Shown piece by piece: positions 4,153 through 31,508 of a stretch of DNA of 31,508 bases (position 1 is its first letter; every line of letters starts with the position of its first letter). The stretch comes from a virus. The position numbers and the translations under genes were made by a program. The notes beneath the pieces are model-generated. The model was not told where the DNA came from and searched no databases. It worked only from the letters and a program-made list of their open reading frames with translations. Location: IMG/VR virus record IMGVR_UViG_3300039018_000304, positions 1-31,508 of that record, one strand, 5' to 3'.

Positions 4153-4419
4153 ATGAATGATTTAAATTCTACACGGTCGCGCCTTGGCTCACTTTCAAAA
4201 ACAAAATTAGCCTTGGTGTCTGCTGCGGCATATAAATTGTTAGATTCTGATTTGCCAAATTTAATTGCCGAAGTTGAAGCAGCAAGAGAAGTCATTAGAG
4301 CTGTAAAGTTAGATGAAAAAAATCTTTCTTTCTTTGTACACGAGCGTTTATTTTATTATAACAAATTGACAAAAATGCAACTATTTGAGAATACCAAAGA
4401 GTTCACAGCCTCGCCTTAA
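4153..4419 (+). CDS. Hypothetical small helical protein
   Basis: An 88-residue, mostly helical protein, last gene of the rightward early operon. It starts after TTAGGAAATGCTTA with AGGA as ribosome site. There is no recognisable domain. Its 3' end overlaps the 3' end of the leftward endolysin gene by 17 nt, and no intrinsic terminator is visible between them. Early transcription may therefore run into the endolysin gene antisense. Function unknown. Confidence 0.55.
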   Translation: MNDLNSTRSRLGSLSKTKLALVSAAAYKLLDSDLPNLIAEVEAAREVIRAVKLDEKNLSFFVHERLFYYNKLTKMQLFENTKEFTASP

Positions 4420-4885
4420 AACGACTTTCTACAGCCTTCCAAACCGCCTCTAAACCACCTTGTTTTTGCAATTCACAAGCCTCGCGCCATGTAAGCCCCT
4501 GCGTTATTTGAAAATGTACCCTTTCAAAATCAATAGGCTCAAACGAGTGCTGTTGCATAATAGAGCTTGGTTTATCGTAGTCCGCATCCCATACCCATCG
4601 GTTTTTAACTTTATAAACTAAATCAACTGCCAGCCCGTACTGATGAAAACTTTGCCAAGGCTTGGCATTAGTAACTTTTTTGCCGGGTATAGAGCGCCCT
4701 TGATTGTAAAGCGCCTGTTGCCTCTCAGGGCTCCTATAAGTCTCAAATGGATACAATGTATACCCGTCTGCGTGAAGCTCCTCTAAAGCACCCCTAAGCA
4801 ACTCTTGGACAAAAGGCGCGAGGCTTTCTATTTTGTCGTCTCGTTTAACTACAGGCTTTTTTGAATAATCATTTGAAGTGCTCAT
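4403..4885 (-). CDS. M15-family peptidase endolysin
   Basis: A 160-residue peptidase of the VanY / L-alanyl-D-glutamate endopeptidase type. Zinc ligands and motif: SFHQYGLAVD gives His81 and Asp88 (the SxHxxGxAxD signature), and His124 lies in VHFQ with Glu121 as probable catalytic acid. The family cuts peptidoglycan stem peptides, so this is the endolysin. No signal peptide, so it needs a holin. I prefer the start at 4885 because the divergent -10 (TATTAT complement of 4913-4918) would start RNA near 4906; longer starts at 4903 and 4936 exist. It stands alone on the minus strand, between two rightward units, and not next to a gene of the same operon. Confidence 0.85.
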   Translation of the reverse strand: MSTSNDYSKKPVVKRDDKIESLAPFVQELLRGALEELHADGYTLYPFETYRSPERQQALYNQGRSIPGKKVTNAKPWQSFHQYGLAVDLVYKVKNRWVWDADYDKPSSIMQQHSFEPIDFERVHFQITQGLTWREACELQKQGGLEAVWKAVESRFKARL

Positions 4886-4888
4886 GTT

Positions 4889-4917
4889 TTGTGCTTTCTG
4901 CATTGACCCCGTATAAT
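4889..4917 (+). promoter_or_regulatory. Promoter of the exported-protease cassette
   Basis: TTGTGC (4889-4894), 17 bp, then a perfect TATAAT (4912-4917), 19 bp upstream of the ATG at 4937. Transcription would begin close to the ribosome site GAAAGGGGGG. The complement reads TATTAT, so a divergent leftward start for the endolysin may share this -10 region. Confidence 0.55.
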
Positions 4918-4936
4918 AAAAAAGAAAGGGGGGCAT

Positions 4937-5125
4937 ATGCCAACATGGATAACGCTAGCAATAACAATTCTAAATGCTGTGATTCAGATTATCAAACTAA
5001 TCATCTCGTTAAATCAGAACGATGTACAGAAAGCCAAAGAAACACCAGCCGCGCTGAAAAGCGCAAGAAAAGAAGGCGACGTAACAAAGATTTTAGAAAT
5101 ATTCTCAACAATGAAAAAGGATTAA
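4937..5125 (+). CDS. Small single-TM protein, holin candidate
   Basis: A 62-residue protein with one hydrophobic segment at residues about 4-24 (WITLAITILNAVIQIIKLII), then a polar, Lys-rich C-terminal tail. A strong GAAAGGGGGG ribosome site lies immediately upstream. Its start codon abuts the longest possible endolysin start head to head (CATATG). Small single-TM proteins beside an endolysin are often holins, but it belongs to the cassette with the exported protein and the papain-like protease, 2 nt from the next gene. It could instead be an accessory membrane protein of that cassette. Confidence 0.6.
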   Translation: MPTWITLAITILNAVIQIIKLIISLNQNDVQKAKETPAALKSARKEGDVTKILEIFSTMKKD

Positions 5126-5127
5126 AA

Positions 5128-5865
5128 ATGTATTATCTAGCTATAATTATTAGTGTTTTGTTGTCAAACTTTGCTTTTGGCCAAGAGCTTCAAGAGCAAG
5201 ATTATAAGGTTGCAAATGAGTTTCATTATTCACGGCTGGCACTTAAGATTGCTCACAAAAGAGCTTTAAGCAGAACTAACCAAGAGGCGATTAAACAACA
5301 AGTCTATGCTGATATTGATAATGGACGCTTTGCTCAAAGAATAGACAGCGCAGTGGACATGATTATAAAACGTACAGACTACGCCTTGAGATCTAAAGGG
5401 TTCTCCGCTGACGCGGATGAAATAATGAGTGAATATCAAGACCACGCTTTTTTTCTAAGTAGCAAAAGAGGCGATATTGGCGATTATGCGGCATGGTCTG
5501 AATTCATGGTCAAAGTGCACGCAAAAGCGCATGAAAAACTTGGGGATACCCTGTGCAAATGGCTTCACGTACATGATTTGTTTATCATTACTTATGGAGT
5601 GCCAGTTGCCTTTGCGCCTGCTGACTTTGATCTTGAAACCTATCAAAATCACTTTACTGGCATTCATATCCTAGGGCCTTTTTGGAAACACTACGGACTT
5701 GCTCCTGTTGTCGTTTATTGGGCTGTAAATATAGTATGCAACGCATCAAGCTCCGGGCTGGCAGCCTTTGCTTGCTCGCCGATTGCAACTGTTGCAGAAC
5801 AAGGATTTGGTATTTACCTATCGCCCCCCCTTGGCGAAAAGATTTGGACAAAAGCACAGAACTGA
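5128..5865 (+). CDS. Exported protein of unknown function
   Basis: A 245-residue protein with an N-terminal signal peptide (MYYLAIIISVLLSNFAFG, probable cleavage after Gly18 by an A-x-G pattern). Start chosen at 5128 after AAAAAGGATTAAAA, 2 nt after the previous gene stop. The mature part is helical and charged to about residue 150. After that come His/Trp/Phe-rich stretches (GPFWKHYGLAPVVVYW) and a hydrophobic Ala/Ser/Cys-rich segment (about 200-225) with Cys residues that could form a disulfide. I do not recognise a family. It is followed 32 nt later by the papain-like protease gene, and both proteins are predicted to leave the cytoplasm; a substrate, activator or inhibitor role is speculation. 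Confidence 0.65.
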   Translation: MYYLAIIISVLLSNFAFGQELQEQDYKVANEFHYSRLALKIAHKRALSRTNQEAIKQQVYADIDNGRFAQRIDSAVDMIIKRTDYALRSKGFSADADEIMSEYQDHAFFLSSKRGDIGDYAAWSEFMVKVHAKAHEKLGDTLCKWLHVHDLFIITYGVPVAFAPADFDLETYQNHFTGIHILGPFWKHYGLAPVVVYWAVNIVCNASSSGLAAFACSPIATVAEQGFGIYLSPPLGEKIWTKAQN

Positions 5866-5897: not shown

Positions 5898-6698
5898 ATG
5901 TTAAAAGTAATCTTACTGTCGTTTATTTTTGCTACTCAACTATTTGCTCAAGAGACTATTGAAACGGTTGAAACCGTCGCAGGCATCAAAGGCACCGGCT
6001 ACCTCGGATGGAAGTCTTTAGAAAACAAACTCACAGCAAAAAGAGAACCGCCGCAAGCAGGCCATGTAATTGTGCCCGCGTCATTTGACTGGCGAGTGGC
6101 TGGCGTTACGTCTCCAATCAAAGATCAAAAAGCCTGCGGCTCATGTTGGGCTTTTGGATTCACTGCTAGCCTAGAGTCTGTTGCAGCTATTTTTGGCGAA
6201 AAATCTGGATTAGATTTGTCTGAGCAAGAATTAGTTAGCTGTGATTATGATGCCCTTGGATGCAATGGCGGATATATGGAGTCGGCTAGTTACGTGGTTG
6301 AAAAAGGCCAAGGGCTTGAAAAAGACTTTCCATACACCGCAAGAGGCAGCGCACGCTGTCGCAAAATAGACAATGCAGTAAAGCCGCAAAGCTATACTTT
6401 GCTCGGAACATCCCGCAAATCACCAACAACTGACGAAATAAAACAAGCTCTTATTGAGCATGGCCCTTTATTTGTTACCGTAGCAGCTGGCGGATCCGGT
6501 TGGTCTGGAGCAACTGGAGAAGTTAAAGGTTGCCGCAACCGTGGAACAAATCACATTGTAAACATTGTTGGTTATACTGAAGATGGGAAATGGATTATGA
6601 GAAATAGTTGGGGAAGCACTTGGGGAGACAAGGGCTATTCGCTTATTAAGTTTGGCTGTGATAAAATTGGCGAGGAGGCTGGATATTTCAGCCTTTAA
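5898..6698 (+). CDS. Secreted papain-family (C1A) cysteine protease
   Basis: A 266-residue protein with all papain hallmarks. Oxyanion Gln77 and nucleophile Cys83 lie in KDQKACGSCWAF, His219 in TNHIV, and Asn236 in RNSWGSTWGDKGY. LSEQELVSC and GCNGG are also present. Cys80, 115, 122 and 154 match the two conserved papain disulfides (80-122 and 115-154). A signal peptide (residues 1-18, ending LFA before QE) sends it to the periplasm or beyond, consistent with disulfides. Only about 42 residues separate it from the mature domain, too short for a full inhibitory propeptide. Start at 5898 follows CAGGAG. It is the last gene of the cassette and is followed by a strong terminator. C1A enzymes are rare in phages; its target is unknown. 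Confidence 0.92.
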   Translation: MLKVILLSFIFATQLFAQETIETVETVAGIKGTGYLGWKSLENKLTAKREPPQAGHVIVPASFDWRVAGVTSPIKDQKACGSCWAFGFTASLESVAAIFGEKSGLDLSEQELVSCDYDALGCNGGYMESASYVVEKGQGLEKDFPYTARGSARCRKIDNAVKPQSYTLLGTSRKSPTTDEIKQALIEHGPLFVTVAAGGSGWSGATGEVKGCRNRGTNHIVNIVGYTEDGKWIMRNSWGSTWGDKGYSLIKFGCDKIGEEAGYFSL

Positions 6699-6732
6699 TG
6701 ATTCTCCGAAAATCATGTGAAATTCCTCTTTG

Positions 6733-6767
6733 TAACCTCTGGTAATTACACCGGGGGTTATTTTTTT
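6733..6767 (+). terminator. Intrinsic terminator of the protease cassette
   Basis: TAACCTCTGGT (6733-6743) pairs over 11 bp with ACCGGGGGTTA (6750-6760), with two G-U pairs in the rightward RNA, a short loop and seven T at 6761-6767. It ends the rightward cassette 35 nt after the protease stop. Confidence 0.85.
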
Positions 6768-6825: not shown

Positions 6826-7086
6826 TTATTGTACTTTACTAGCCGCTTTCAAAGCAACTTCGACAAGGGCAGCGACCAATAGCTTTACTTCATCAGAATC
6901 AAGCTCAGAAAGCTCATCTTTAACCATTTGCAAACTGCTTACGCAAAGTTTCAAATCAGCAACTACGCTAGGCAATACTTTCATATCTGACAGCGTAACT
7001 TGTCCATCTTCTAAAACTTTTTCAACACAATCAACTATGTCTGCTAGTGCTTTTACTACTGCTAAACTTTTTTCTACTCCGGCCAT
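6826..7086 (-). CDS. Small helical protein at the end of the late operon
   Basis: An 86-residue protein, almost entirely predicted helix, rich in Val, Ala, Leu, Asp and Ser (for example SLAVVKALADIVDCVEKVL). There is no obvious membrane segment because charges recur every few residues. The ribosome site AAAGGAG lies inside the stop region of the preceding holin-like gene, only 3 nt away, so they are coupled. Position after a holin-like gene suggests a lysis accessory or a minor structural role; neither can be shown. Confidence 0.55.
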   Translation of the reverse strand: MAGVEKSLAVVKALADIVDCVEKVLEDGQVTLSDMKVLPSVVADLKLCVSSLQMVKDELSELDSDEVKLLVAALVEVALKAASKVQ

Positions 7087-7089
7087 AAC

Positions 7090-7278
7090 TTAACTCCTTT
7101 TTTTTTTATTCTCAACCACTCGCAACCGTTGCTCATGATCCTTTACCTGTTCAATAATAACACCAATTTTAATATTTAATTCCTGCAAACTGCTGAGAGA
7201 ACTATATAAAATTTTAGCACAAAAACCGAGTGCACCAGCAATTGAAGCAAGCAATACTTGGCTTATTTGAACCTCCAT
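7090..7278 (-). CDS. Holin-like membrane protein with coiled coil
   Basis: A 62-residue protein with a hydrophobic segment at residues about 5-26 (ISQVLLASIAGALGFCAKIL), then a heptad-like stretch (LQELNIKIGVIIEQVKDHEQ) and a basic tail KKKR. One TM plus a coiled coil and charged C-terminus fits a small late holin or a holin-associated protein. It follows the preceding gene with no intergenic base and precedes the helical 86-residue protein by 3 nt. The 3' end contains an A10 run on its coding strand (7098-7107 complement), which also forms part of the next gene's ribosome site. Holin identity is by size and topology only. Confidence 0.6.
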   Translation of the reverse strand: MEVQISQVLLASIAGALGFCAKILYSSLSSLQELNIKIGVIIEQVKDHEQRLRVVENKKKRS

Positions 7279-7628: not shown

Positions 7629-8501
7629 TCAGCCTCCCTGCTGTCCGGCAATCCATGCCGTGATTAATAAGTCACTGCCGTCGTGTGTTTGATCTTTGTC
7701 GCAAGGCTCCCAATCCGAGCCGTAGTCTCTTTGCCATAGATATTCTTCGCAGCGATCTTTAGCAGTTGGCAGCCTGTCAGATGGAAACCATTTTTCTGTT
7801 AACAAAATGTCTATTGCTGGCTGTTGATTGCCATCCTTAAATTTATGATATAAGGCTTGAAATAAAGCGTTATTAGGACTTTCGTCTTTGTACTTTCTGA
7901 GCATTTCGTAATCAACAGAATCAATAGAATCATTAATCATTGATCGCGTTAAAAGTGACATGGCATCAAGATGCTTCTCAAATCCGGCTTTACCTGTAAT
8001 TTCAGCAAAGGGGGCTGTTGATTTTACAGGTATCATGCCTAGCAATTTTTGAAGCAAAAGTACCATAGAGGGTGTTAAAAACGTTCGAGATAGTGGCCCG
8101 CGTCCCATGACGTTGCCGTGTTCTTTGCCGTAATTGTAAATGTCTTTTAATTCTTGTTTTTCCCCGGATTGATATAGAAATGGCCACAGCATCATAAACA
8201 TGTCTTTAGAGATATCACTTGCGGACTTGCCTAAATCATAACAAGTGTGGCTTGGGTTCCTGTACCACCTTCCCGGCTCGCCTTCGGCTTGTTTGATATC
8301 AGCGTCAACACAGCCGCCACCAAGCTTACATAAAGCTGTGAACCCAAGAGAGTCGCATCCCTCTTGGTGAGCCCAACCTTTATGTAGGGATTTGTACAGG
8401 CTTACTTTTGCCGCAACTTCAGAAGACCGTTGTTTAGTCTCCTTTGCCTTTTGTTTTCCACAAGAGGCGATCAACAAAATTGTAAGAATGAAGTGCAACA
8501 T
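7629..8501 (-). CDS. Large phage-encoded lipoprotein
   Basis: A 290-residue protein with a lipoprotein signal: LTILLIASC puts the lipidated cysteine at residue 14 with I-A-S before it. The residue after Cys is Gly, not Asp, so by the usual enterobacterial rule it would go to the outer membrane. The mature part is globular, with six or more cysteines that may form disulfides and a C-terminal DGSDLLITAWIAGQQGG. No domain is recognised. It lies in the late operon right after the tail-fibre genes, preceded by AGAGGTAACT. It is far too large for a normal outer-membrane spanin; receptor masking, lysis or envelope remodelling are possibilities, none proven. Confidence 0.7.
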   Translation of the reverse strand: MLHFILTILLIASCGKQKAKETKQRSSEVAAKVSLYKSLHKGWAHQEGCDSLGFTALCKLGGGCVDADIKQAEGEPGRWYRNPSHTCYDLGKSASDISKDMFMMLWPFLYQSGEKQELKDIYNYGKEHGNVMGRGPLSRTFLTPSMVLLLQKLLGMIPVKSTAPFAEITGKAGFEKHLDAMSLLTRSMINDSIDSVDYEMLRKYKDESPNNALFQALYHKFKDGNQQPAIDILLTEKWFPSDRLPTAKDRCEEYLWQRDYGSDWEPCDKDQTHDGSDLLITAWIAGQQGG

Positions 8502-10622: not shown

Positions 10623-11966
10623 TTAACAAATATACCAGTCTGTTCCGTCCGTTACAAAACTCCACGAGCCTAAATCTTCTCGTAATAGATAACTTGCTGC
10701 GACAGTTTCTATCTTTTCAGACCCGGCTCTTAAAATTGTTATATTGTTTGCAGTCGATGTTCCTGTCTTGTCTTTGACAGTAATCAAAGCGCCAGCCACT
10801 GGACTTGGCAGCTGTAAAGACCTTGCGGCAGTTGTATCAACTAAATAAATACCGTAATTTGCTAAAGTAATGTTAGAGGAAACGCTGACAACGGTTTGCA
10901 CCGATGCTTTGCCAGTTATTTGCGTCTGGATTGCACTAGTCACGCCTGAGACATAGCCTAATTCTGTACTAGTCACAGTCGACGCTACAGGAATGCCGCT
11001 GGCGTCAGAAGCCAAGGCCCGGCTTGCTGTAATTGCCGTTGTTTCTACAATAGCGCCTGCACTTGAAATTATTACTCTGTTATTAGACAGAGCCGTCCCG
11101 CTATTAGTTCCACCTTTGGCAACGCTTAAAGTTGTAATAGTGGGCTCTTTACCGCTTATTTGCGTCTGGATTGCACTAGTCACGCCTGAGACATAGCCTA
11201 ATTCTGTACTAGTGACAGTTGAGGCTATCGGAATGCCAGATGCATTACTTTCTAATGCTCGGCTTGCTGTAATTGCTGCGGCTTCAACAATAGCCCCTGT
11301 GTTTGACACTATTACTCTATTATTAGACAGAGCCGTCCCGCTATTAGTCCCGCCTTTAGCAACAGACAAGGTAGTAATAGTAGGCTCTTTACCGCTTATT
11401 TGCGTCTGGATTGCGCTGGTTACACCCGAGACATAACCAAGCTCTGTATTAGTAACGGTTGAAGCTACAGGAATGCCAGATGCATCGCTTTCTAATGCTC
11501 GGCTGGCAGTAATTGCCGCAGCTTCAACGAGAGATCCTCCTAAGCTCTTTATTACACGCCCGTTTGACAATGCCGTACTACTATTTGTGCCGCCATTTGC
11601 AACGGGCAATATTCCAGACACCTGCGAAGTTAAAACAATTGGAACCCCAATTGCGACCCAAGCCGATCCACTCCAACGATATAAAGCATTTTCTGCAATT
11701 GCTAATCTAACTTCGCCGCTAACAACGCCGGAAGCTGGCAAAGCCGCTACACTTGCAACGGCATCTCCCCAATAAACAGAGCCGCCAGTCAAAACCCAAC
11801 TGGCACCATTCCACTCATAGAATTTATTTAAATCTAAAACGAGTCGAACCTCGCCAATAACAGCCCCGGAAGCTGGCAAAGACGCAACATTTGCAACGGC
11901 ATCGGCCCAATATGCTGACCCGCCCGTACCAGAGCCCCCTAAAACCGGATATTTAAAACTGCTCAT
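10623..11966 (-). CDS. Repetitive tail-fibre protein
   Basis: A 447-residue fibre built of modules. Residues 18-62 and 64-107 are two copies of a YWxDAVAxVAxLPASG ... W unit. Residues 120-199, 200-279 and 280-359 are three 80-residue repeats containing GGTNSxTALSN, ITASRALxSxASGIP and TELGYVSGVTSAIQTQI. Residues 360-447 are a C-terminal domain ending TDGTDWYIC. The GGTNSG / TELGYVSGVTSAIQTQ repeats are common in phage tail fibres. The start overlaps the preceding stop by 4 nt (ATGA). The C-terminal domain resembles that of the 215-residue protein at 20597-21244. Probably a trimeric fibre shaft plus tip, in the late operon. Confidence 0.8.
   Translation of the reverse strand: MSSFKYPVLGGSGTGGSAYWADAVANVASLPASGAVIGEVRLVLDLNKFYEWNGASWVLTGGSVYWGDAVASVAALPASGVVSGEVRLAIAENALYRWSGSAWVAIGVPIVLTSQVSGILPVANGGTNSSTALSNGRVIKSLGGSLVEAAAITASRALESDASGIPVASTVTNTELGYVSGVTSAIQTQISGKEPTITTLSVAKGGTNSGTALSNNRVIVSNTGAIVEAAAITASRALESNASGIPIASTVTSTELGYVSGVTSAIQTQISGKEPTITTLSVAKGGTNSGTALSNNRVIISSAGAIVETTAITASRALASDASGIPVASTVTSTELGYVSGVTSAIQTQITGKASVQTVVSVSSNITLANYGIYLVDTTAARSLQLPSPVAGALITVKDKTGTSTANNITILRAGSEKIETVAASYLLREDLGSWSFVTDGTDWYIC
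10890..11609 (-). repeat. Three tandem 240-bp repeats in the fibre gene
   Basis: Units at 11370-11609, 11130-11369 and 10890-11129, each exactly 80 codons. Parts of neighbouring units are almost identical at DNA level, for example the stretch after TTTGCGTCTGGATTGCACTA at about 10919 and 11159. Other parts have drifted synonymously, so the array is a mosaic shaped by recombination. Copy number could change between relatives. Confidence 0.85.
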
Positions 11967-14955: not shown

Positions 14956-16446
14956 TTATTTATTAGGTCTAGCAGTTGGCAGTTCTTCAGGGCTTATAGA
15001 ACTTCCCTGTATTTTGCTCACTGGATTAATCCCAAATCTATCTAACACAATGCTCTGTTGAAATTTAGCTTTTAGAAAATTAGCTAATCCTTCTCGTTTC
15101 ATGTTTTGCGTTTTATTGTCATCCATATACTTAGGAAGAAATGATTTTGCTTCCTCTTTGTCGGATTCAGACAAGTTACCAAATATTTGCTTTATGTTTG
15201 GCAGCATTTGAGCGAAAGCTGCATCCATTCTTTGGTTGTATTGAATTGGATTAGCAATAATCCCCTCTGCTTTAACTTTTGAAGCGGTATCAAATACCCG
15301 GAGAGCGTTTTTATAATTCTCAACATCTCCAGTAGCTTTATCGTATTCAGCGATAGCCTTTTCTTGTAATTTTTGAGGCACTTGCGACATAATAACTCCA
15401 AGATCGCCTTGGTGCTGGTTAAATGCCGGGGACGACATAAAAGTCTGAGCAAGCCCCATTTTATTTTGAGCAATTTGTTGATCAATTTTAGCCACCGCTT
15501 CCGCAGCTCTGGCTTTTACTTCTAAATTATTAGAAGTTCCGGCCATTGCTTCCATTTGCATCCTTGCGGCTTGCAAACCCATTGTTTGAGCCAATTGCGC
15601 AGCCGATCTTTTGTCATTTGTATATTGCAACGCGCGTGAATAACTTCCTTGGGCCATTCCAGCTAATTCTTTTTTAGACTCTATAGTTGCTTTTTGAGCT
15701 TCAACATCTCTCGATATTGCGTTATTCATAACATCCAAGGCAGCATTACCGCCGCGCCCTGTCATGCCTCCGCCTATACCGCCAAGAACTAAAGCAATAG
15801 CAGTCATTATTTTTTCGCCGGTACTTTTGTCATTCCAATATTTATTGGGATCAATTTTTGTTGATCTTACATCATTTAAAGCTGTGTCAACATCATCCTG
15901 CTTTCTTTGAAGATATTGAGCTTGAGAATCTTCGGATGCTTGAAATGCTTTTGCTCTATCAGCCTCTTTTTGAACAAGATCGTTAAGAAGTGCTCCCCTT
16001 TTTTGCTCAATTGCGGCTTGCTCTTTTACCGTTTGAGCAATAACGGCTTTTTGAGCTTCTAAAGCGCCGGTTTGTTGCTCAAAACCTTGCATATATGATT
16101 GCATACCAAGTCTTTGAGCCTCACTTGGTCGCTGGCCTTGGCTTTTATTAACGTCACCAGCTAATACTGGCTTGGCTTCAGGTTGCTCTATCGGCGGTTG
16201 TGCCATTGGTAGCTGTGCCATTGGCGGTTGTGCCATTGGTGGCTGTGCCATTGGTATTACTGGAGCCTCAACTATTGGTGCCGGTGTAACAACTGGAGTT
16301 ATTGGTGCCATAGGCGCAACAGGTGCCGCGGATAGATTAGGAGGAATTCGACCCGGCGGAGTAAAATCCGGTGATAAATATCCTTTGCTTTGCAAAGCCG
16401 CCCATTGGTCTGGATTTAAGCCACCTGCCAAATTTTCCTCATCCAT
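14956..16446 (-). CDS. Internal virion protein with Pro-rich repeats
   Basis: A 496-residue protein. The N-terminus is disordered and Pro/Ala-rich, with tandem MAQPP / MAQLP repeats at about residues 66-86. The middle is a long helical, Gln/Ala/Lys-rich region and contains a Gly-rich hydrophobic segment at about 210-233 (IMTAIALVLGGIGGG). The rest is helical. Together with the 857-residue neighbour it looks like an ejection protein. Its start overlaps the S74-domain gene end by 8 nt. The repeats are encoded by imperfect 18-bp DNA units at about 16198-16256. Confidence 0.6.
   Translation of the reverse strand: MDEENLAGGLNPDQWAALQSKGYLSPDFTPPGRIPPNLSAAPVAPMAPITPVVTPAPIVEAPVIPMAQPPMAQPPMAQLPMAQPPIEQPEAKPVLAGDVNKSQGQRPSEAQRLGMQSYMQGFEQQTGALEAQKAVIAQTVKEQAAIEQKRGALLNDLVQKEADRAKAFQASEDSQAQYLQRKQDDVDTALNDVRSTKIDPNKYWNDKSTGEKIMTAIALVLGGIGGGMTGRGGNAALDVMNNAISRDVEAQKATIESKKELAGMAQGSYSRALQYTNDKRSAAQLAQTMGLQAARMQMEAMAGTSNNLEVKARAAEAVAKIDQQIAQNKMGLAQTFMSSPAFNQHQGDLGVIMSQVPQKLQEKAIAEYDKATGDVENYKNALRVFDTASKVKAEGIIANPIQYNQRMDAAFAQMLPNIKQIFGNLSESDKEEAKSFLPKYMDDNKTQNMKREGLANFLKAKFQQSIVLDRFGINPVSKIQGSSISPEELPTARPNK
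16198..16256 (-). repeat. Imperfect 18-bp tandem repeats
   Basis: Four copies of a unit like TGTGCCATTGGTGGC on the plus strand, which encode MAQPP/MAQLP on the minus strand. Unit number is likely to vary by slippage; the encoded segment is a flexible linker in a probable ejection protein. Confidence 0.6.
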
Positions 16447-30902: not shown

Positions 30903-30931
30903 GAGTAAACTTATAGCAATCGGAGGTGCCC

Positions 30932-31508
30932 GTGAAAGTTCACTTGGTCATTCCAGATTTACATGTACCATTTCACGATGTAAAGTGTACGAAGCTAATA
31001 ACAAAAATTATTAAAGAAGTCAACCCTGACGGTATTGTGCAATTAGGAGACGCTCTTGATGCTTTCCAAATTAGCACTTACAGCAAAGACCCATCTCGCC
31101 GCAATCTTTTAGCGGACGACATTGAAGACTACAAAGGCATTTTAAACGAGTGGACGCGACATCTCAAGTCAGGGGCAACAATCCATTTGCTAGAGGGTAA
31201 CCACGAATACCGTTTAAAACGGTTTATAGCGTCACAGGCGCGTGATCTTCACGGGTTGATACCAGACTGGCCTACGCTATTTCAAATAGCCCTAAGAAAC
31301 AAATCAGGGCGACACAAATGGATTTGGCATGATTACCAAAAATGGGATAGCTGTAAAATTGGGGATTGCACTCTTTTGCATGGCTTTTATTTTAACCAGC
31401 ATGTTGCTATGACGTGCCTAGCCAAATACCGCACTAACGTCATTTTTGGCCATACCCACCGGCTACAGTATGTCTTTGACGGTGTCCATTATGCAGCGAG
31501 CCTTGGCC
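30932..31508 (+). CDS. Metallophosphoesterase, 5' part (continues at window start)
   Basis: The GTG start at 30932 is preceded by CGGAGGTGCCC. Metal-binding motifs occur in order: PDLH (Asp9, His11), GD (Asp40), GNHE (Asn90, His91); then HG and GHTH in the overlapping end region. This is the calcineurin-like metallophosphoesterase fold. The gene runs off the window end but continues seamlessly at base 2 of the window in the same frame, giving 245 residues in a circular molecule. No signal peptide. Substrate unknown; such enzymes in phages may process nucleotides or RNA ends. Confidence 0.9.
   Translation, partial: MKVHLVIPDLHVPFHDVKCTKLITKIIKEVNPDGIVQLGDALDAFQISTYSKDPSRRNLLADDIEDYKGILNEWTRHLKSGATIHLLEGNHEYRLKRFIASQARDLHGLIPDWPTLFQIALRNKSGRHKWIWHDYQKWDSCKIGDCTLLHGFYFNQHVAMTCLAKYRTNVIFGHTHRLQYVFDGVHYAASLG
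31209..31223. promoter_or_regulatory. 15-bp palindrome in the metallophosphoesterase gene
   Basis: ACCGTTT-A-AAACGGT is a perfect inverted repeat. The reverse strand begins ACCGTTTTAAA, which is the same 11 bases as 30679-30689 in the divergent promoter region. It could be an operator, or chance within coding DNA (it encodes Tyr-Arg-Leu-Lys-Arg-Phe). Confidence 0.25.
31363..31508. repeat. Terminal overlap, right copy
   Basis: Second copy of the end overlap; see the left copy. It lies inside the metallophosphoesterase gene, so it is an assembly overlap of a circular map rather than a dedicated terminal repeat, although a true direct repeat cannot be excluded. Confidence 0.9.

Follow-up and report, generated by a model that had tools for sequence, protein, structure and literature searches.

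Why does a tailed phage encode a papain-family cysteine protease that appears to be sent out of the cytoplasm, and what could such an enzyme do there? The question is raised by the gene at positions 5898 to 6698 of the IMG/VR viral record IMGVR_UViG_3300039018_000304, whose whole stretch of 31,508 bp was analysed and is called the window here. An earlier note on this DNA, made from the letters alone, had described the product as a complete C1A protease and had proposed that it acts on envelope proteins, through lysis without a spanin, removal of receptors, or inactivation of host or competitor proteins. On balance, we lean towards the reading that the gene encodes a genuine exported C1A protease, acquired from Bdellovibrionota (the phylum that includes intraperiplasmic predators), which cuts envelope proteins late in infection for virion exit. 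The gene and its parts are given below.

5898..6698, + strand: C1A (papain family) cysteine protease, 266 aa (Pfam 1e-45; AlphaFold2 (AF2) model with VIA Z = 31)
5898..5948, + strand: signal peptide, residues 1-17 (by inspection of the sequence)
5949..6071, + strand: short pro-region, residues 18-58, with a clade-wide TG(L/Y) motif (alignment, model)
6072..6695, + strand: mature catalytic domain, residues 59-266 (Pfam, PDB matches, model)
6144..6146, + strand: codon of the catalytic Cys83 (alignment)
6552..6554, + strand: codon of the catalytic His219 (alignment)

The open reading frame (ORF) begins with ATG, 7 nt downstream of the ribosome-binding site CAGGAG, and ends with TAA. Its product matched Peptidase_C1 (PF00112) over residues 59-255 with 156.9 bits against a Pfam cut-off of 20.7 (E = 1e-45). 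The top PDB sequence matches were plant papains (1e-34), with a mature-domain identity of 39-42%. The four active-site residues named by the earlier note (Gln77, Cys83, His219 and Asn236) were found where it had placed them, and together with Gly34 of the pro-region they are invariant across 33 aligned relatives; the active site appears to be under selection in a diverse family. Both papain-type disulfide positions that it had recognised are also occupied (Cys80-Cys122 and Cys115-Cys154, papain numbering). A third pair absent from that description, Cys212/Cys254, co-varies among the relatives, with both cysteines in 24 rows, neither in 8 and a mixed state in 1 (P = 6e-7, a value that ignores kinship). 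Its claim of a signal peptide and a short pro-region likewise held: as read from the sequence, cleavage would fall after residue 17, between MLKVILLSFIFATQLFA and QE, and about 41 aa (residues 18-58) follow before the mature domain.

The earlier note had suggested a structure prediction, and the AF2 model (mean predicted local distance difference test, pLDDT, 91.8) aligned with procathepsin K at Z = 31 in VIA-align; its pro-region occupies the cleft as the end of a cathepsin pro-peptide does. The overlay runs from model residue 25 on, which covers only the C-terminal part of the pro-peptide (59P onward). This suggests that the cleft-filling strand is kept and that the globular I29 part is absent. 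No Pfam match to the Inhibitor_I29 (ERFNIN) pro-domain was found in the C1A protein, in which only about 41 residues precede the mature domain. The protein shares with papain and cathepsins K/L the fold (Z about 28-31, 1.4-2.3 Å), the catalytic residues, the two standard disulfides, to which a co-varying third pair is added, and the pro-segment in the cleft; however, it differs from them in its pro-region of about 41 aa, which matches the usual pro-peptide in its C-terminal part, and in being encoded by a tailed phage. An intact exported-type C1A zymogen encoded by the phage is confirmed at the level of sequence, with export predicted from the signal sequence. Nearly all relatives carry a signal peptide or a lipobox (the latter, for example, in loci L010, L026, L030, L034, L035 and L044), and C-terminal extensions of immunoglobulin-like (Ig-like) appearance are seen in L018, L020, L025 and L026.

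Could the gene be an assembly artefact? The two ends of the record overlap by 146 nt with 2 mismatches, and the record is therefore a closed, terminally redundant phage genome of about 31.4 kb. It codes for a terminase (PHROG 8.6e-38), a portal and a major capsid protein (SU10_MCP 6.5e-9). The GC content of the C1A gene (0.448) is similar to that of the surrounding sequence, and the close relatives L005 and L138 carry the gene in a comparable setting. A chimeric contig, which the earlier note had named, along with loss of the gene in close relatives, as what would overturn its reading, is ruled out by the closed ends, the matching GC and the relatives with the gene. The overlapping ends (1-146 and 31363-31508) represent two population variants of one sequence stretch, and the linear record splits a metallophosphatase gene there (30926-31508, resuming at 1-307).

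We then explored how widely such genes occur in viruses, a search that the earlier note had proposed together with a tree. A scan of IMG/VR with the single protein gave no C1A, and an alignment query that included plant papains was used instead. This query found 47 IMG/VR contigs with C1A, and a search with c2, the gene upstream of the protease, contributed 6 more, which had escaped pattern scanning. In IMG/VR, the number of further contigs with such C1A genes is at least 45, and many C1A contigs share viral hallmark genes related to those of the window (portal, terminase). Loci L038, L041, L043, L047 and L049-L051 were left out of the phage evidence because they lie outside the main group or their viral status is unproven. 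The nearest relative of the window C1A is that of L005 (53% identity), and the best bacterial protein in the genome scan reached 39%. No close relative was found among 50,697 deposited phages. The only two INPHARED matches (L002 = MT838937 and L003 = MT837935, from faeces) resemble pieces of Firmicutes chromosomes and were discarded; labelled 'Bacteriophage sp.', they have an rRNA methyltransferase, an XTP pyrophosphatase and a YfcE-type phosphatase as neighbours.

The statement that C1A proteases are very unusual in tailed phages thus stands for deposited phages, among which they are rare; it does not extend to IMG/VR, with its further contigs, and phages were already known to have distant C1 peptidases of a non-exported kind. 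One of these is Tsac_2838 of the Thermoanaerobacterium phage THSA-485A (PHROG 16701 type), which has papain-like catalytic residues and a gene lying 15 nt after a GH25 endolysin. However, it has no signal peptide and no GSCWAF motif, its sequence is very distant, and its host is of the Gram-positive type. In the literature searched on phage C1A/papain proteases, proteases in phage lysis and Bdellovibrio phages, we found no prior description of a phage C1A of the exported form, of lysis genes associated with it, of the c2 family or of the link to Bdellovibrionota. The C1A family is old; what seems to be new is its exported form in phages, the lysis-gene association, c2 and the Bdellovibrionota link.

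Where did the phages obtain the gene? C1A genes at E ≤ 1e-20 were detected in 57 of 282 Bdellovibrionota genomes, a phylum assignment that rests on the named loci L056 and L058. In a tree of 43 rows, phage and Bdellovibrionota C1As, plus one Elusimicrobia-like pair, stood apart from those of other bacteria (support 98/89), and the window C1A grouped with L005 and L138 (98/93). A single viral clade had been hinted at by a first tree and was dropped once added Bdellovibrionota genes interleaved with the viral ones: L142 joins L211 inside a chromosomal group (100/99), L144 joins L206/L209/L212 (100/100), and L031 joins L056/L058 (97/92). Host-phage transfer therefore occurred several times, which supports the earlier suggestion of an origin by transfer from the host lineage. 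Its direction appears clearest for L142, which is nested among chromosomal genes.

The compact chromosomal C1As of Bdellovibrionota (L056, L058 and L195-L197) share the exported layout and the tree branch with the window C1A, and L056 and L058 also have the TGL pro-region motif of the phage proteins. However, neither lysis genes nor c2 adjoin them in the loci examined. A prophage-like region in the Bdellovibrionota genome G076 has a C1A gene beside a serine recombinase at its edge and a homologue of c12, a gene that also lies beside the protease in the window. Its portal is 42% identical to that of the c2 phage L147 and its terminase 47% identical to that of L159; therefore, the phage group is tied to Bdellovibrionota. 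Related C1A viruses are mostly linked to this phylum, and we infer that the host of the window phage would also belong there. These results bear on another explanation, in which the protease is cargo for the predatory life of a Bdellovibrio-like host, digesting prey protein or helping to open the prey ghost. The closest cellular relatives are indeed chromosomal exported C1As of Bdellovibrionota, and the edge of the G076 region beside a recombinase is a typical cargo site. However, no integrase was recognised among the window ORFs on inspection, and the window C1A lies in a lysis-type operon. We regard a cargo role as quite unlikely.

The neighbourhood of the C1A gene bears on its use. The adjoining features in the window are listed below.

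4403..4936, − strand: putative endolysin of the VanY/M15 peptidoglycan peptidase type, oriented divergently to the operon (Pfam VanY 2.2e-8; PHROG endolysin 4.5e-16); true start probably 4903 or 4885
4937..5125, + strand: TM75, a 62-aa protein with a single N-terminal transmembrane (TM) segment and a charged tail; strong Shine-Dalgarno sequence AAGGGGGG
5128..5865, + strand: c2, 245 aa, exported-type; helical, with a signal peptide and, at the C-terminus, a pair of hydrophobic helices (sequence, model)
6732..6767, + strand: intrinsic terminator with a 12-bp stem and a T run, ending the TM75-c2-C1A operon (sequence)
6826..7086, − strand: c12, an 86-aa helical protein without a TM segment, which occurs near C1A/c2 in relatives
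7090..7278, − strand: 62-aa protein in which one TM segment and a probable coiled coil are seen (by inspection)

TM75, c2 and C1A are three + strand genes with good ribosome-binding sites, followed by the terminator, and this order suggests that they are transcribed jointly up to 6732. The earlier note mentions neither c2 nor TM75, nor a link to Bdellovibrionota. TM75, which had no meaningful PHROG match, may be holin-like to judge by its size, and the 62-aa TM protein at 7090..7278, also without a PHROG match, is a candidate holin or inner-membrane lysis protein. The order TM75-c2-C1A together with c12 is also found in L008 and L138; L006 has c2-C1A-c12 and L007 has TM75-C1A-c12. TM75-like genes lie upstream of C1A or c2 in L007, L008 and L138, and c12 lies near C1A in L005-L008, L138, L023 and L028 and near c2 in L142/L147. 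None of the small TM proteins near C1A matched a PHROG spanin; a spanin may lie elsewhere in the genome. The C1A protein itself is not of the spanin kind, being an enzyme without a TM anchor other than its signal peptide.

We compared up to 4 neighbours of C1A with up to 4 genes more than 5 kb away in 35 phages by a Pfam scan. Peptidoglycan hydrolases made up 11-12 of the 131 neighbours and 1 of the 122 distant genes (Fisher P about 0.006 for 11 vs 1), an enrichment whose true strength is lower because six amidase cases come from one phage group. The hydrolases near C1A were Amidase_2 (7 cases), M15 (2-3), a phage lysozyme and GH108; the distant one was an NlpC/P60 protein. The type of endolysin varies at a constant place, with M15 in the window and L032, an amidase in L005 and the L026 group, and GH108 in L139. 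In the unrelated phage THSA-485A, too, the gene of the distant C1 peptidase comes 15 nt behind an endolysin. A peptidoglycan hydrolase that adjoins the gene and is kept across phages, as in a lysis cassette, is thus found here, though not in all members. Because of the adjoining endolysins, lysis is preferred over the other uses that the earlier note had proposed, and its broader idea of action on the envelope is probable.

One of those other uses is that the protease strips receptors or other surface proteins, by which superinfection would be blocked or progeny would not be bound to debris. The exported type of C1A, its lipoprotein anchor in several relatives, and the Ig-like domains of some, which could bind surfaces, would suit this explanation. 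However, the operon beside an endolysin and the recurrent association with differing endolysins indicate the end of infection, and we consider surface stripping rather unlikely. We give very little credence to a role in counter-defence or inter-phage warfare, in which a periplasmic or surface defence protein would be destroyed: no defence locus was recognised near C1A, and the neighbourhood is of the lysis type.

In the phages L026, L030, L033, L044 and L045, C1A follows an amidase and is itself directly followed by an exported HExxH protein for which Pfam gave no match (L026 6337-7158, L030 5346-6176, L033 9027-9833, L044 9063-9863 and L045 9051-9812). The latter is possibly a second, metallo-type protease of the amidase-C1A cassette. 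A thioredoxin/AhpC-like protein lies two genes from C1A in L032 (9427-9900) and could help to form or reduce the disulfides of an exported cysteine protease.

A further companion of C1A is c2. Its model is helical (pLDDT 80.6), with two conserved Cys in the hydrophobic C-terminal helix pair, and its signal sequence is of the lipoprotein type in L017 and L019-L024. We found no significant match in Pfam, PHROG or PDB sequences, none in INPHARED, and only weak helical PDB matches at background level in a fold search; BFVD holds one uncharacterised phage homologue. The IMG/VR scan gave 24 c2 loci, and 16 of the 24 records also hold C1A. This overlap far exceeds the expectation from tens of C1A contigs per 2.9 million, even if the greater part of them escapes scanning. 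On the 152-kb phage contig G022 (the record of L029), C1A (L029 7737-8639) and c2 (G022:C1:36511-37203) are widely separated. Among cellular genomes, c2 was detected in 26 of 291 Bdellovibrionota, in 0 of 398 from the phylum of Candidatus Contendobacter (Pseudomonadota) and in 0 of 195 from a third phylum. An exported S8 subtilase is a frequent neighbour of the chromosomal c2 (Bdellovibrionota loci L172, L183 and L186-L190, the L186-L190 loci being syntenic). These associations suggest that c2 may be a dedicated partner of exported proteases, as a targeting factor, inhibitor or membrane adapter.

From the gene order, the signals and the model, we infer late expression, activation, substrate and an envelope-clearing purpose of C1A as follows. 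C1A and c2 would reach the periplasm via Sec and, in relatives with a lipobox Cys, would become membrane lipoproteins. The disulfides would form after export, and the pro-region in the cleft would hold the enzyme latent until it is cleaved. The endolysin would open the peptidoglycan, and the protease would cut proteins that tie down the outer membrane or cover the cell as the last barrier. Spanins of Gram-negative phages act through fusion or disruption, without a protease; they face the same proposed barrier, the outer membrane after endolysin action, and have no homology to C1A. It is conceivable, though we hold it doubtful, that in phages of Bdellovibrio-like hosts an exported papain-type zymogen and c2, together with a one-TM protein, dissolve Gram-negative envelope protein in place of spanins, possibly because escape from the surrounding prey cell is also needed, and that c2 is a general partner of exported proteases (subtilases on host chromosomes, C1A in phages).

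Apart from the dominance of one phage group in the hydrolase counts, several findings weigh against the lysis reading and its host link. For many C1A genes, no endolysin could be recognised at a distance of up to two genes. C1A is missing from eight of the records with c2, and no S8 peptidase occurs in these either; a constant pairing of c2 with a protease is ruled out, and the tie is therefore strong, not absolute. The window portal gave a single weak match in each of the two phyla tested, and portal homology was set aside as uninformative about the host. The L009-L016 group has C1A among head/terminase genes and c2 elsewhere. This last arrangement would suit a packaged protease that acts on the envelope during entry, but almost every relative has a signal peptide or a lipobox, and this, like the zymogen-type pro-region, fits secretion by the infected cell and not packaging, which makes an entry function highly improbable.

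To our knowledge, proteolysis has no accepted place among the steps of phage lysis, and we know of little work on the phages of Bdellovibrionota. Papain-type proteases that are exported, apparently intact and encoded in lysis neighbourhoods offer, together with c2, a testable candidate route through the outer envelope. The repeated exchange means that protease genes move between phages and host chromosomes, and C1A and c2 may serve as metagenome markers for phages of this host group. The phage C1A also parallels the baculovirus cathepsin v-cath, a viral protease that works together with the wall-degrading chitinase chiA when the host is liquefied and the virus spreads (PMC9965964). This parallel is functional only; baculoviruses infect eukaryotes, and the host is a whole insect.

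Some further features of the window were observed. It contains no Rfam RNAs or tRNAs. A tail-fibre-like protein (10623-11966, − strand) has a 240-nt unit in about 2.6 tandem copies, and an in-frame 15/30-nt tandem repeat of PPMAQ units (16193-16256) lies within a 496-aa protein (14956-16446). Among the tail-side genes, a 290-aa lipoprotein with no assigned function (7629-8501, − strand) has a counterpart with 62% identity in L005 and a distant version in L017, a conservation that is unusually high for the phage group.
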